Below are positions 59,296 to 64,000 of a DNA stretch of 64,000 bases, in pieces (the stretch's first letter is position 1; the number at the start of each line of letters is the position of its first letter). A program made the position numbers and the translations under genes. This stretch comes from Denitrovibrio sp. (GTDB lineage Bacteria; Chrysiogenota; Deferribacteres; Deferribacterales; Geovibrionaceae), in assembly GCA_002869185.1 (NCBI GenBank), contig PKTN01000001.1:186001-250000 (forward strand), written 5' to 3'. Under the pieces are notes generated by a model that was not told the DNA's origin, ran no database searches, and was given only the letters and a program-made list of their open reading frames with translations.

Positions 59296-60072
59296 ATGAA
59301 GCAAATAATACAAAAACTTGGCTCTTCAGCCATCGAAACTGCATTATTTTATTTTGGGTATTTTAGTTTCACTCTTAATTTTTTAAAAGGGTGTTTTAAT
59401 AGCCATCTTTTAAACCCTTCGGTTAAGCTCGTTTTTGTGCGTCAAATATACTTTACAGGCGTTCAAATAATACCTATGTTTTCAGTGATATCAATAGTCT
59501 TGGGACTCGCTCTAGTTGGTGGTTTAACAAGTTTCCTTGTCCAATTTGGTGCTCAGGATAGAGTCGGAGAAGTGCTTGTTTTGATAACAATAAAACACCT
59601 TGCTCCTCTGGTGACAGCTATACTTTTAACCCTTCGCTCTTCAAGTGCTGTAACAGCTGAAATCGCACTTATGAAAATGAACAGAGAGATCAACACTCTT
59701 AAGTCACTTTCAATCAACCCCTTTGTTTACTTGTACATACCTCGTATTTTATCTGGAATAGTATGTATGGGGGCTCTTGCGACTATCTTTGTTTACATTT
59801 CTATAATAGGTGGATATTTGATTTTGAGTTTTAATTTGAATATATCATTCGATTTTCTAATACAGACTATTTTTGACGCATTTAATTTTAGGATCGTATT
59901 GGTTTTTCTAATAAAGGTCATCCTTCTTGGTTATTTTACAATGTCTATACCTATCTATAGTGCCCTCCAAGTGGACAATGCAGTCACTGAAATACCTATA
60001 GCACTTCTTAAGGGTATGCTTAGACTCTTTTATGCGATAATATTGGTCACATTAATAGGTGAGTTAATATGA
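59296..60072 (+). CDS. MlaE-family lipid ABC transporter permease
   Basis: 258 aa from ATG 59296; the frame opens with a TTG at 59257 but the family start fits 59296. Membrane protein with about five helices. Marks: GVQIIPMFSVISIVLGLALVG, LVTAILLTLRSSSAVTAEIALMKMNREI (MlaE cytoplasmic coupling region) and the C-terminal hydrophobic block. First gene of a four-gene operon (permease, pseudo-ATPase, MCE protein, lipoprotein); the stop overlaps the next start. It would move phospholipids between the membranes. Confidence 0.9.
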   Translation: MKQIIQKLGSSAIETALFYFGYFSFTLNFLKGCFNSHLLNPSVKLVFVRQIYFTGVQIIPMFSVISIVLGLALVGGLTSFLVQFGAQDRVGEVLVLITIKHLAPLVTAILLTLRSSSAVTAEIALMKMNREINTLKSLSINPFVYLYIPRILSGIVCMGALATIFVYISIIGGYLILSFNLNISFDFLIQTIFDAFNFRIVLVFLIKVILLGYFTMSIPIYSALQVDNAVTEIPIALLKGMLRLFYAIILVTLIGELI

Positions 60073-60587
60073 TTAACAACTACTTAATCTATTATCCTAA
60101 GTCATCTTTACGTGATGAGTGGGAGAACGTCCTTATGGGTTACGCAAATAGAACAAAAATAGGAATTGTTTCAAAAATGGTCCCTATTATTGGAAATCTA
60201 TCAGTTGCGGAGAATATCCTTGTCGCTGCTTACTATCACCATAAGGTCTCTTACAAGGAAGGAATGAAGCTAGTAATCTCTGATCTTAAGAAATTTGGAA
60301 TGGAACATCATGTCAACTCTAGAAGTAATCAGCTTAACGATTTTGAGACATTTATAGTAAAATACTTACAAGTAAAATACCTTTGTCCTGAATGGATAGT
60401 ATTTATAAGCCCTAGGCGGATGTATGTTGCAGACTATGAAGATAAATTTCACGAATTTTTACGTTGTGAAGACATTGCAAAATCGGTTATCATTGAACAC
60501 GAGTCAAATAGAGAGCTTTTCAGTGATATGAAAGAATATACAGAAAAGGATTTTAACAGATGGGCGACCCAAGATTTAAAAATTTAG
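60069..60587 (+). CDS. Degenerate MlaF-position protein lacking ATPase motifs
   Basis: 172 aa, in the position where MlaF (ATPase, about 265 aa) is expected. A remnant ABC look remains: the text after the Q-loop, IGNLSVAENILVAAYYHHKVS (43-63 region), matches the MlaF SVxENV part, followed by helices like the helical subdomain and PEWIVFISPRR (107-117) in the Walker B position. But there is no Walker A (GxxGxGKS), no LSGG signature and no DE pair in Walker B. It cannot be a normal ATPase. The N-terminal third is too short for a P-loop domain. Overlaps the permease by 4 bp and the MCE gene by 28 bp, both in frame for coupling. Confidence 0.7.
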   Translation: MINNYLIYYPKSSLRDEWENVLMGYANRTKIGIVSKMVPIIGNLSVAENILVAAYYHHKVSYKEGMKLVISDLKKFGMEHHVNSRSNQLNDFETFIVKYLQVKYLCPEWIVFISPRRMYVADYEDKFHEFLRCEDIAKSVIIEHESNRELFSDMKEYTEKDFNRWATQDLKI

Positions 60588-61567
60588 AATTAAAAGTAGG
60601 CTTTTTTATCCTTATATCTATCGCAATGATTTTTGTGATGATGGTAGGGTTTCTTGTTACACAGGACGTTTTCACTAAAAAGGTGAAAGTCGTCTTTATC
60701 GCGAAGTCCGGACAAGGACTTTCTAAGAGCATGCCTGTTATGTATTCAGGTTTCCAGATTGGGCGTGTCCATAAGATAGAGCTTAGGGATGACGGTCGTG
60801 TTGAACTGCGTGCTAACATTCCGGAAAGATATGACAAATGGATAAAATCTGATTCAGAAGTCAAAATTCAAGCTCAGGGTGTTATTGGTGCGACTGCACT
60901 TGTATTTGATGGTGGCACTCCTGAGAACCCTCCAATTCAAAATGGTCAAACATATACTCTTAAAAGAGAGAGAGGCATCGCTGATATTATGCTTAAGGTC
61001 GAACCTATGATAAATGACGTTAAACATATATTAGAAAACGTTGACAAAGTCTCTACTTCTATATCAGAAAAAAGAGCTAAAATCGAAAATATGCTAGATG
61101 GCGTTGGTGCTGTTGGTAGTGACCTTAAGAACAAAGAAGGTTCTGTTGGATATCTTGTTCGTTCTGACTACCTTAAGGATGAAGTGGCGAAGATCGTTAA
61201 TAAGATTAAAACCATTGAAGATAACGTACAAAAGATAACTAAAGCTGTTAATGCTAGAGTTGATGAGACAAAGCCAGTGATAAAAAGCTTTGATAAAGGG
61301 TTGGTTGCTATAAAAGAAGGTTATGAGAAGATCGGAAATCTGGCAAAAGACCTTAATAAGACTGTTGATAAACTGCAACCTACAATAACTAATACTAACA
61401 AGATCACTACAGATATATCTGAAACCACGACAGACCTAGCAGATATTAGAAAACAGACAGATGAAATTTTAAACACTACAAACCGAATTTTACTGAACCT
61501 AGAAGAGAAGTGGCCTTTTGATGCTGATACAGGCATAAATGTAGATGAGAAGGTGAAGTTGCCATGA
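60560..61567 (+). CDS. MCE/MlaD-family lipid-binding protein
   Basis: 335 aa. N-terminal membrane helix about 11-34, then an MCE domain (about 38-120): KVKVVFIAKSGQGLSKSMPV, VMYSGFQIGRVHKIEL, VKIQAQGVIGATALVFDGG. A long helical C-terminal part (about 135-320) follows, as in MCE proteins that form tubes or rings. Periplasmic, inner-membrane anchored. The start lies 28 bp inside the previous gene; an AAAGGA is 9 bases upstream. Ends overlapping the lipoprotein gene start (ATGA). Confidence 0.92.
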   Translation: MGDPRFKNLELKVGFFILISIAMIFVMMVGFLVTQDVFTKKVKVVFIAKSGQGLSKSMPVMYSGFQIGRVHKIELRDDGRVELRANIPERYDKWIKSDSEVKIQAQGVIGATALVFDGGTPENPPIQNGQTYTLKRERGIADIMLKVEPMINDVKHILENVDKVSTSISEKRAKIENMLDGVGAVGSDLKNKEGSVGYLVRSDYLKDEVAKIVNKIKTIEDNVQKITKAVNARVDETKPVIKSFDKGLVAIKEGYEKIGNLAKDLNKTVDKLQPTITNTNKITTDISETTTDLADIRKQTDEILNTTNRILLNLEEKWPFDADTGINVDEKVKLP

Positions 61568-62238
61568 GAAAAATATTAATACTAATATGTGTAATTGCTC
61601 TGGTTATGTCTTGTGGAAGCAAACCACAGAAATCACCTAACTTTCTATTTGGTAGTAAATTATATAGTAATTTTGTTAATTATTATTTGAAGGGTGAGCC
61701 AAGGCTTGCAGAGATGGCTTTCGCTTCGGCTGAGAACCAATTCCTTAGAATGGATGCAATGTGTAATCTTTCACGTATATATATAGGTAGATTTGTCCTA
61801 GATGAAGGTGGCGAAGAAGAGAGTGGCCTATCTAAGGCTCGTGCTTATGCAACTTTAGGAGAATGTCAGTCAGAAATCGAAGCAATTAAGTATCTTTCCG
61901 ATGAAAATTATGATAAAAAACTTTTACCAGATCCTTACGCTCAAATTGCTGGTGCTGATAAAAAAACACTAGTGGAGTTGACAGACGATAAAAAGATGGC
62001 TAATTATACTAAGACACGACTCCTTAGAAATGTAGCTATTGGGTATCTTGTAAGCAATCCTACAAAATCTGAGGAGCTTGCAAACAAGGCTTTGGTTATT
62101 GATAGATTTAATGGGTGGTCTCTTAACATACTAAGAGATCTCATAATTATTAAAACTTCAAGAGAGAAAATAGGGAAAAATAACGAAGATATAAATAAAA
62201 GAATAAAGCTAATTAAGGCGTCGTTGAACAAAAAATAG
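61564..62238 (+). CDS. Lipoprotein of the Mla-like operon
   Basis: 224 aa with lipobox LVMSC (cysteine 17). The mature part is helical with TPR-like patterns (KGEPRLAEMAFASAENQFLRM, SEELANKALVIDRFNGWSLN). It is not a known MlaA/MlaC homologue from what can be seen. Coupled by ATGA overlap to the MCE gene, so it is likely an outer- or inner-membrane-anchored part of the same lipid system. Function unknown. Confidence 0.7.
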   Translation: MRKILILICVIALVMSCGSKPQKSPNFLFGSKLYSNFVNYYLKGEPRLAEMAFASAENQFLRMDAMCNLSRIYIGRFVLDEGGEEESGLSKARAYATLGECQSEIEAIKYLSDENYDKKLLPDPYAQIAGADKKTLVELTDDKKMANYTKTRLLRNVAIGYLVSNPTKSEELANKALVIDRFNGWSLNILRDLIIIKTSREKIGKNNEDINKRIKLIKASLNKK

Positions 62239-62314: not shown

Positions 62315-62700
<386 letters not shown>

Positions 62701-62735
62701 TATTTAAAAATACATAGGTGATTCTAGGAGGCAAT

Positions 62736-64000
62736 ATGACACCGAAAGATGCAATTAAATTTATCGAGGAAAAAGGAGCTAAGCTCGTTGACCTTAGATT
62801 TTCAGACTTTTTAGGACAGTGGCAGCACACTACAGTACCTGCTCACGAGATTTCAGAGGACATCTTTGAAGATGGACTTGGTTTTGATGGTTCTTCTATC
62901 AGAGGATGGCAAGCAATCAACAACTCTGACATGATTATGCTCCCTGATGCAGCGACAATCAAAATGGATCCTTATACAGAGGTTCCTACAGCATACATGA
63001 TCTGTAACATCTTTGACCCTATTAGCAAAGAGCGTTACACAAAAGATCCTAGAAACATAGCTACTAAAGCTATCAAATACCTTCAGTCTACAGGTCTTGC
63101 TGATACAGCATACTTTGGACCAGAAGCTGAATTCTTCGTATTCGATAACGTTCAATACGATACTACAAAGAACTCTTCTTACTACTTCGTAGATACAGAA
63201 GAGGGTAACTGGAACACTGGCGCTGAAGGCAAAAACCTCGGTTACAAAATCAGACCAAAAGAGGGATACTTCCCAGTTCCACCACTCGACTCACTCTTCA
63301 ACCTTCGTAACGAAATGGTTATGACTATGGAAGAGCAAGGTCTTTACATCGAGAACTCACACCACGAAGTTGCTTCAGGCGGACAGTGTGAAATCGATAT
63401 GAGATTTAGCGATATGATCAGCATGTCAGATGACCTTCAGACATTCAAATACATCGTTAAAAACACAGCTAAGAAATATAACCAATCAGCTACATTCCTT
63501 CCAAAGCCACTTTTCGAAGATAACGGCTCTGGTATGCACGTACACCAATCACTCTGGAAAGATGGTACTCCACTTTTCGCTGGTGACGAGTACGCAGGTC
63601 TTAGTGAGATGGCTCTTTACTACATCGGTGGTATCATCAAGCACGCTCACACTATCGCTGCTTTCACAAACCCTACAACAAACTCTTACAAGAGACTTGT
63701 TCCTGGTTTTGAGGCTCCTGTTTCTCTTGCATACTCATCTAGAAACAGATCAGCATCACTTAGAATCCCAATGTACTCTCCATCACCAAAGGCGAAGAGA
63801 GTAGAAGTTAGATTCCCAGACCCAATGGCTAACCCATACATGGCTTTCACAGTTATGCTTATGGCTGGTCTTGACGGAATCCAGAACAAAATCGATCCAG
63901 GTGAGCCAATGGACAAGAACCTTTACGATCTTGATCCTATTGAGCTTTCAGCTATCCCACAGATGCCTTCTTCACTTGAGCAGGCTATCGATGCACTTGA
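62736..64000 (+). CDS. glnA: Glutamine synthetase type I (cut by window end)
   Basis: About 421 of an expected 470 residues are present. ATG 62736 with AGGAGG upstream. [11 protein letters not shown] (latch region), [11 protein letters not shown] with the metal-site Glu, [22 protein letters not shown] (ATP/glutamate site), and [17 protein letters not shown] are conserved. The adenylylation tyrosine motif is present as KNLYDLDP. Makes glutamine from glutamate and ammonia; the partner of the PII protein just upstream. Confidence 0.97.

Follow-up and report, generated by a model that had tools for sequence, protein, structure and literature searches.

A predicted P-loop-less NBD remnant in the MlaF slot of an MlaE-MCE-lipoprotein operon of Denitrovibrio and its relatives

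We detected, at positions 59296-62238 of a 64,000-nucleotide stretch of Denitrovibrio sp. DNA (contig PKTN01000001.1; the whole stretch is called the window here), an MlaE-type MCE transport operon with a pseudo-NBD, the product of its second gene, here named P2. P2 is under purifying selection and strictly linked to one MlaE clade, its docking positions are conserved, and the contact made through the Walker A helix has been lost on both partners. From sequence comparison and structure models, we suggest that the MlaE, MCE, and lipoprotein subunits probably form a conduit to which P2 is attached as a motorless "docking NBD", and we infer that this conduit is ATP-independent. The open-licence literature yielded no account of an MlaE system whose MlaF is motif-less, in agreement with the original prediction made for this DNA.

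The four genes are on the forward strand in the order MlaE - P2 - MCE - lipoprotein, and the ORF calls gave overlaps of 4, 28 and 4 bp, with the same coordinates as in the original prediction. The divergent MlaE-family permease (59296-60072, 258 aa) matched the Pfam family PF02405 with 157.8 bits (curated cut-off 22.5) and was aligned to MlaE of E. coli, P. aeruginosa, and A. baumannii with an ungapped coupling helix (TM2-TM3), located inside AEIALMKMNREINTLKSLSINP. P2 (60069-60587, 172 aa) is followed by the MlaD-type MCE protein (60560-61567, 335 aa; PF02470 at residues 41-116, 47.1 bits, cut-off 25.1; NCBIfam TIGR00996, 9e-18), which consists of a TM helix, a single MCE domain, a long coiled coil, and a conserved C-terminal xLP; the C-terminus reads KLP, ELP, or KIP in most relatives. 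The last gene (61564-62238) encodes a 224-aa lipoprotein with the lipobox LVMSC and an invariant Cys17. Its AlphaFold model is all helices (pLDDT 90.7), and it is tentatively described as TPR-like, the Foldseek search having returned only weak TPR-like matches, none at E<=0.001. The glnB (P-II) and glnA genes are located 3' of the operon (window positions 62326-63998), and the same neighbours were observed in other Deferribacterota (L035, L041-L044).

P2 matched no Pfam family. The NCBIfam ABC-ATPase profiles gave weak matches, all of them on the Q-loop/helical region (P2 residues 27-91) and beginning at approximately position 80 of the profiles; a remnant of the MlaF helical region had been recognised in the original prediction. 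Modelling of P2 alone with AlphaFold (14 sequences) gave a compact ABC NBD fold (pLDDT 90.9, pTM 0.87), whose best PDB matches in Foldseek are ABC NBDs, among them A. baumannii MlaF (6z5u_K; TMq 0.72, 2.7 A, 16% identity) and MceG (8fed_H; TMq 0.72). The P2 family profile searched against PDB sequences also detected ABC NBDs (best 2.5e-12), mainly from just before the Q-loop to the Walker B strand, and P2 members outside Deferribacterota matched ABC families up to approximately 1e-9, in the post-Walker-A part only. Since the agreement with ABC NBDs is in sequence as well as in fold, P2 is by these comparisons a homologous NBD-derived protein, beyond mere resemblance, with a predicted loss of the ATP site. 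Walker A (GxxGxGK[ST]), LSGG, and the Walker B DEP were found in none of the 55 distinct P2 members. In several members outside Deferribacterota, IDRPF replaces DEP and the Walker B Asp is kept, so weak nucleotide binding is possible there. The "DEA" of the L070 P2 was rejected as a Walker B, being placed in a helix away from it.

The missing motifs bear on an asymmetric arrangement, in which P2 would pair with one canonical MlaF and the resulting NBD heterodimer would have one ATP site at most. Degenerate sites are well documented in ABC exporters (PMC7544095), but P2 could complete neither composite site because both Walker A and the signature motif are missing, and MlaE should homodimerise, since the operon has a single MlaE gene; we consider such a pair very improbable.

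The P2 gene was examined for a frameshift or assembly error hiding a normal P-loop upstream of 60069, and none was found: the upstream DNA encodes MlaE in another frame, and the 4-bp ATGA junction of MlaE and P2 is identical in all Deferribacterota loci examined. A decaying P2, kept solely by translational coupling to the MCE gene, would be in line with the premature stop found in one MAG, Denitrovibrio sp. BM701 (G001; L005 1501-2016 / L035 6001-6516), where an in-frame TAG at P2 codon 143 of 172 reflects either a genuinely shortened gene or a misassembly. Decay is scarcely credible against the pairwise dN/dS of 0.03-0.11, similar to that of the neighbour genes, the conservation of block P39-H57 across phyla, and the confident compact fold of the model. 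P2 is steadily conserved across relatives under purifying selection, as anticipated by the earlier argument against a pseudogene.

P2 (family length 142-178 aa) was detected in 38 of the 51 sampled genomes (G000-G050) of the window's phylum, Deferribacterota, with contig scan matches in Denitrovibrio, Seleniivibrio, Calditerrivibrio, and other Deferribacterota. Short P-loop-less relatives are also present in MAGs labelled Helicobacter cetorum (one), "Deltaproteobacteria" (several), and "Pseudomonadota" (one), the phyla outside Deferribacterota being assigned by MAG labels and that of the Helicobacter-labelled MAG being taken as Campylobacterota. In the Campylobacterota sample, 13 of 298 genomes (approximately 4%) scored at least 61 bits, a threshold above the ordinary ABC ATPases (at most 52 bits), and 12 of these 13 proved to have the operon; among 247 genomes sampled from the phylum of one "Deltaproteobacteria" MAG, 7 contain P2. 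The original prediction was right about an MlaF-derived motif-less protein, underrated its spread to several phyla, and missed the co-adapted MlaE clade described below.

The order MlaE - P2 - MCE - lipoprotein with overlapping genes was observed in nearly all loci. One exception is a further P2-bearing family, f103 (two genomes; L113, L114), in which the genes next to MlaE and P2 on the downstream side include no clear MCE gene. The other is L046 (6067-8050), where P2 and MCE are separated by two unrelated genes, one for an AAA-type ATPase and one HNH-like, which look like a mobile or defence insertion. The L050 match was discarded as an ordinary sugar-type ABC ATPase. Outside Deferribacterota (L045, L046, L048, L049, L059-L072, L074, L075), P2 apparently starts at a conserved rare ATT, a few bases past a GAGGTG Shine-Dalgarno, and its overlap with mlaE is 37 bp in L045 and L071 and 22 bp in the others; L063, L065, and L066 have no in-frame ATG, GTG, or TTG ahead of the conserved P2 block. 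AUU start codons are best known from infC and pcnB.

The divergent MlaE was found adjacent to P2 in 35 of 35 tested P2-bearing Deferribacterota genomes and in none of the 11 Deferribacterota genomes that have no P2. In each of the tested P2-bearing genomes, the divergent MlaE is immediately upstream of P2 and a second, canonical MlaE is encoded at another locus. A branch with 100/100 support separates the P2-associated MlaEs from the others in a tree flagged for rooting and long branches, and the window MlaE falls in the P2-associated clade (100/100). Alternatively, P2 might be a regulator or decoy that binds canonical MlaE or MlaF and tunes the ATP-driven system, without being a subunit of its neighbour. 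The retained MlaE-docking surface would suit such a role, to which we give a very small chance, as P2 always accompanies the divergent MlaE, none of the 11 genomes with just the canonical MlaE encodes it, and its overlaps with both neighbour genes are fixed.

An intact MlaF adjoins MlaE in 20 of 20 canonical comparison operons and in the window genome's own canonical operon. Nine genomes were found to have one MlaF ortholog each (365-554 bits; next ABC protein at most 156 bits), and wherever the canonical operon was inspected, the MlaF gene was located in it. The separate orphan MlaF offered as one alternative in the original prediction was therefore not found in these 9 genomes, and it is disfavoured because the only MlaF is in the canonical operon and the P2-linked MlaE has lost the pairing acid. 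The other alternative offered, that the system works without a full MlaF, is the one that we favour and infer here.

The MlaE coupling helix of E. coli MlaFEDB contacts MlaF through the residue pairs (MlaE-MlaF) R142-E112, S131-R157, Q128-L96, E127-R52, and M135-Y108 (PMC7784689). Alignment mapping placed the equivalents of MlaF L96, Y108, E112, and R157 at P2 positions 40, 52, 56, and 101, giving P2 equivalents for 4 of the 5 MlaF residues that contact the coupling helix. The numbering is that of what we take to be the E. coli MlaF sequence, transferred via the P. aeruginosa alignment, with agreement around the Q-loop. The first three positions lie in the most conserved P2 block (residues 39-57, PIIGNLSVAENILVAAYYH, positions 60183-60239), which has the lowest column entropy in the family; this block is the Q-loop/helical-subdomain region and corresponds to the surface of MlaF that docks on MlaE. 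The entropy at positions 40, 52, and 56 is 0.89, 0.64, and 0.85 (approximately 2-3 for most of P2), and position 101 is R or Q in most members (entropy 1.47). For the fifth residue, R52 on the Walker A helix, no equivalent could be recognised in P2. MlaF residue 52 is K or R in 23 of 23 full-length MlaFs examined, and MlaE position 127 (E. coli numbering) is E or D in 23 of 23 canonical MlaEs, including that of the f27 system with a full-length NBD. The same position is acidic in 0 of 55 P2-linked MlaEs (mostly R; the window MlaE is also non-acidic), a loss that may be one inherited event because these 55 MlaEs are related, and it is the pattern expected had P2 replaced MlaF on the divergent MlaE. 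Judged from these positions, P2 probably docks on the MlaE coupling helix.

The canonical MlaF of the same genomes could act in trans on the divergent MlaE, in which case the MlaF of the second operon would power both MlaE systems, much as one MceG does for several mycobacterial Mce systems, and P2 would act as an adaptor or stabiliser or help in assembly. MlaF is intact in all canonical operons inspected, and a paper on mycobacteria (PMC9947336) describes the separately encoded ATPase MceG as serving Mce1 and Mce4. We regard a shared MlaF as unlikely, because the coupling-helix acid is gone in 55/55 P2-linked MlaEs although MlaF still has its basic partner, and because the surface kept by P2 is the groove that MlaF would need.

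The P2 operon was compared with known systems. With MlaFEDB of E. coli and the long-MlaD MlaEFD of Veillonella parvula (PMC10665443) it shares MlaE, an NBD-fold subunit in the MlaF slot, MCE, the tight gene order, and the conserved coupling-helix docking positions. Unlike these systems, it has an NBD devoid of Walker A, signature, and Walker B, an MlaE that has lost the coupling-helix acid, and its own TPR-like lipoprotein, and neither MlaA nor MlaC was found in the window genome. Because MlaA and MlaC are missing, the two MCE systems of this genome are both probably bridge-type, as in Veillonella. PqiABC and LetAB of E. coli are, like the P2 operon, MCE conduits that have no ATPase motifs, and Pqi also has an outer-membrane lipoprotein; their inner-membrane protein, however, is PqiA or LetA in place of MlaE (PF02405), and no NBD-like subunit has been described for them, whereas the P2 operon has P2 and a predicted all-helical lipoprotein. 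PqiA and LetA have been described as having no ATPase domain (PMC12436622), and Pqi/Let transport may be passive or driven via an unidentified ATPase or the proton motive force (PMC10897342). On our best reading, the P2 system would functionally resemble Pqi and Let. The Brucella Mpc system (Mla-Pqi chimera) likewise has four genes, encoding MlaE-like, MlaF-like, long MlaD-like, and fourth subunits, but its MlaF-like subunit, MpcF, has been reported to be a well-conserved ABC ATPase (PMC12436622). Mycobacterial Mce1 with MceG also combines the MlaE-like YrbE with MCE proteins, and the P2 model matches MceG (TM 0.72); MceG differs in being an intact, separately encoded ATPase.

Two full-length NBDs suggest, by their sequences, a possible route of NBD reduction. 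Family f27 (L112 2854-3582, L082; G762, G067) has an MlaE-MlaF-MCE-lipoprotein operon with a full-length MlaF-like NBD, in which Walker A is intact and Walker B reads WDNP (catalytic Glu to Asn). G603 (L077 3711-6134) has an NBD-MCE-lipoprotein cluster, in which the Walker A of the full-length NBD is destroyed, and no MlaE gene adjoins the cluster. The f27 MlaE groups among the canonical MlaEs in the MlaE tree, and f27 as the direct ancestor of the P2 systems is therefore unsupported.

We propose the following arrangement, in which the docking itself, the oligomeric state, the independence from ATP, and the lipid cargo and its direction are all hypothetical. The transenvelope lipid conduit would consist of dimeric MlaE in the inner membrane, a hexamer of the MCE protein with its coiled coils forming a needle, and the lipoprotein at the outer membrane. 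P2 has lost the ATP site and retained the surface with which MlaF grips the MlaE coupling helix, and it most likely stays attached at all times to the MlaE with which it co-evolved, capping its cytoplasmic face in a structural or gating role. Lipids would then move without ATP hydrolysis by this complex, down a gradient or by another energy source. It appears rather likely that this MlaE clade of ABC type gave up ATP, with the NBD reduced to an ATP-free docking/gating subunit and the permease co-adapted, and, as part of this abandonment of ATP and with similar likelihood, that the system is a lipid conduit of ABC ancestry which is no longer an ABC pump. One ATP-driven and one motorless MCE system would thus be present per cell, echoing Mla versus Pqi/Let in E. 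coli.

The need of MCE lipid transporters for ATP, the reason for it, and the direction of lipid movement are unsettled in the field. In the P2 case, evolution would have taken the motor off an MlaE transporter and left the gripping part, while the cell also has an intact paralog driven by ATP. Studied side by side in a single organism, the two systems would allow direct tests of what ATP does and of which way lipids are transported, and would reveal the roles of an NBD besides ATP hydrolysis.
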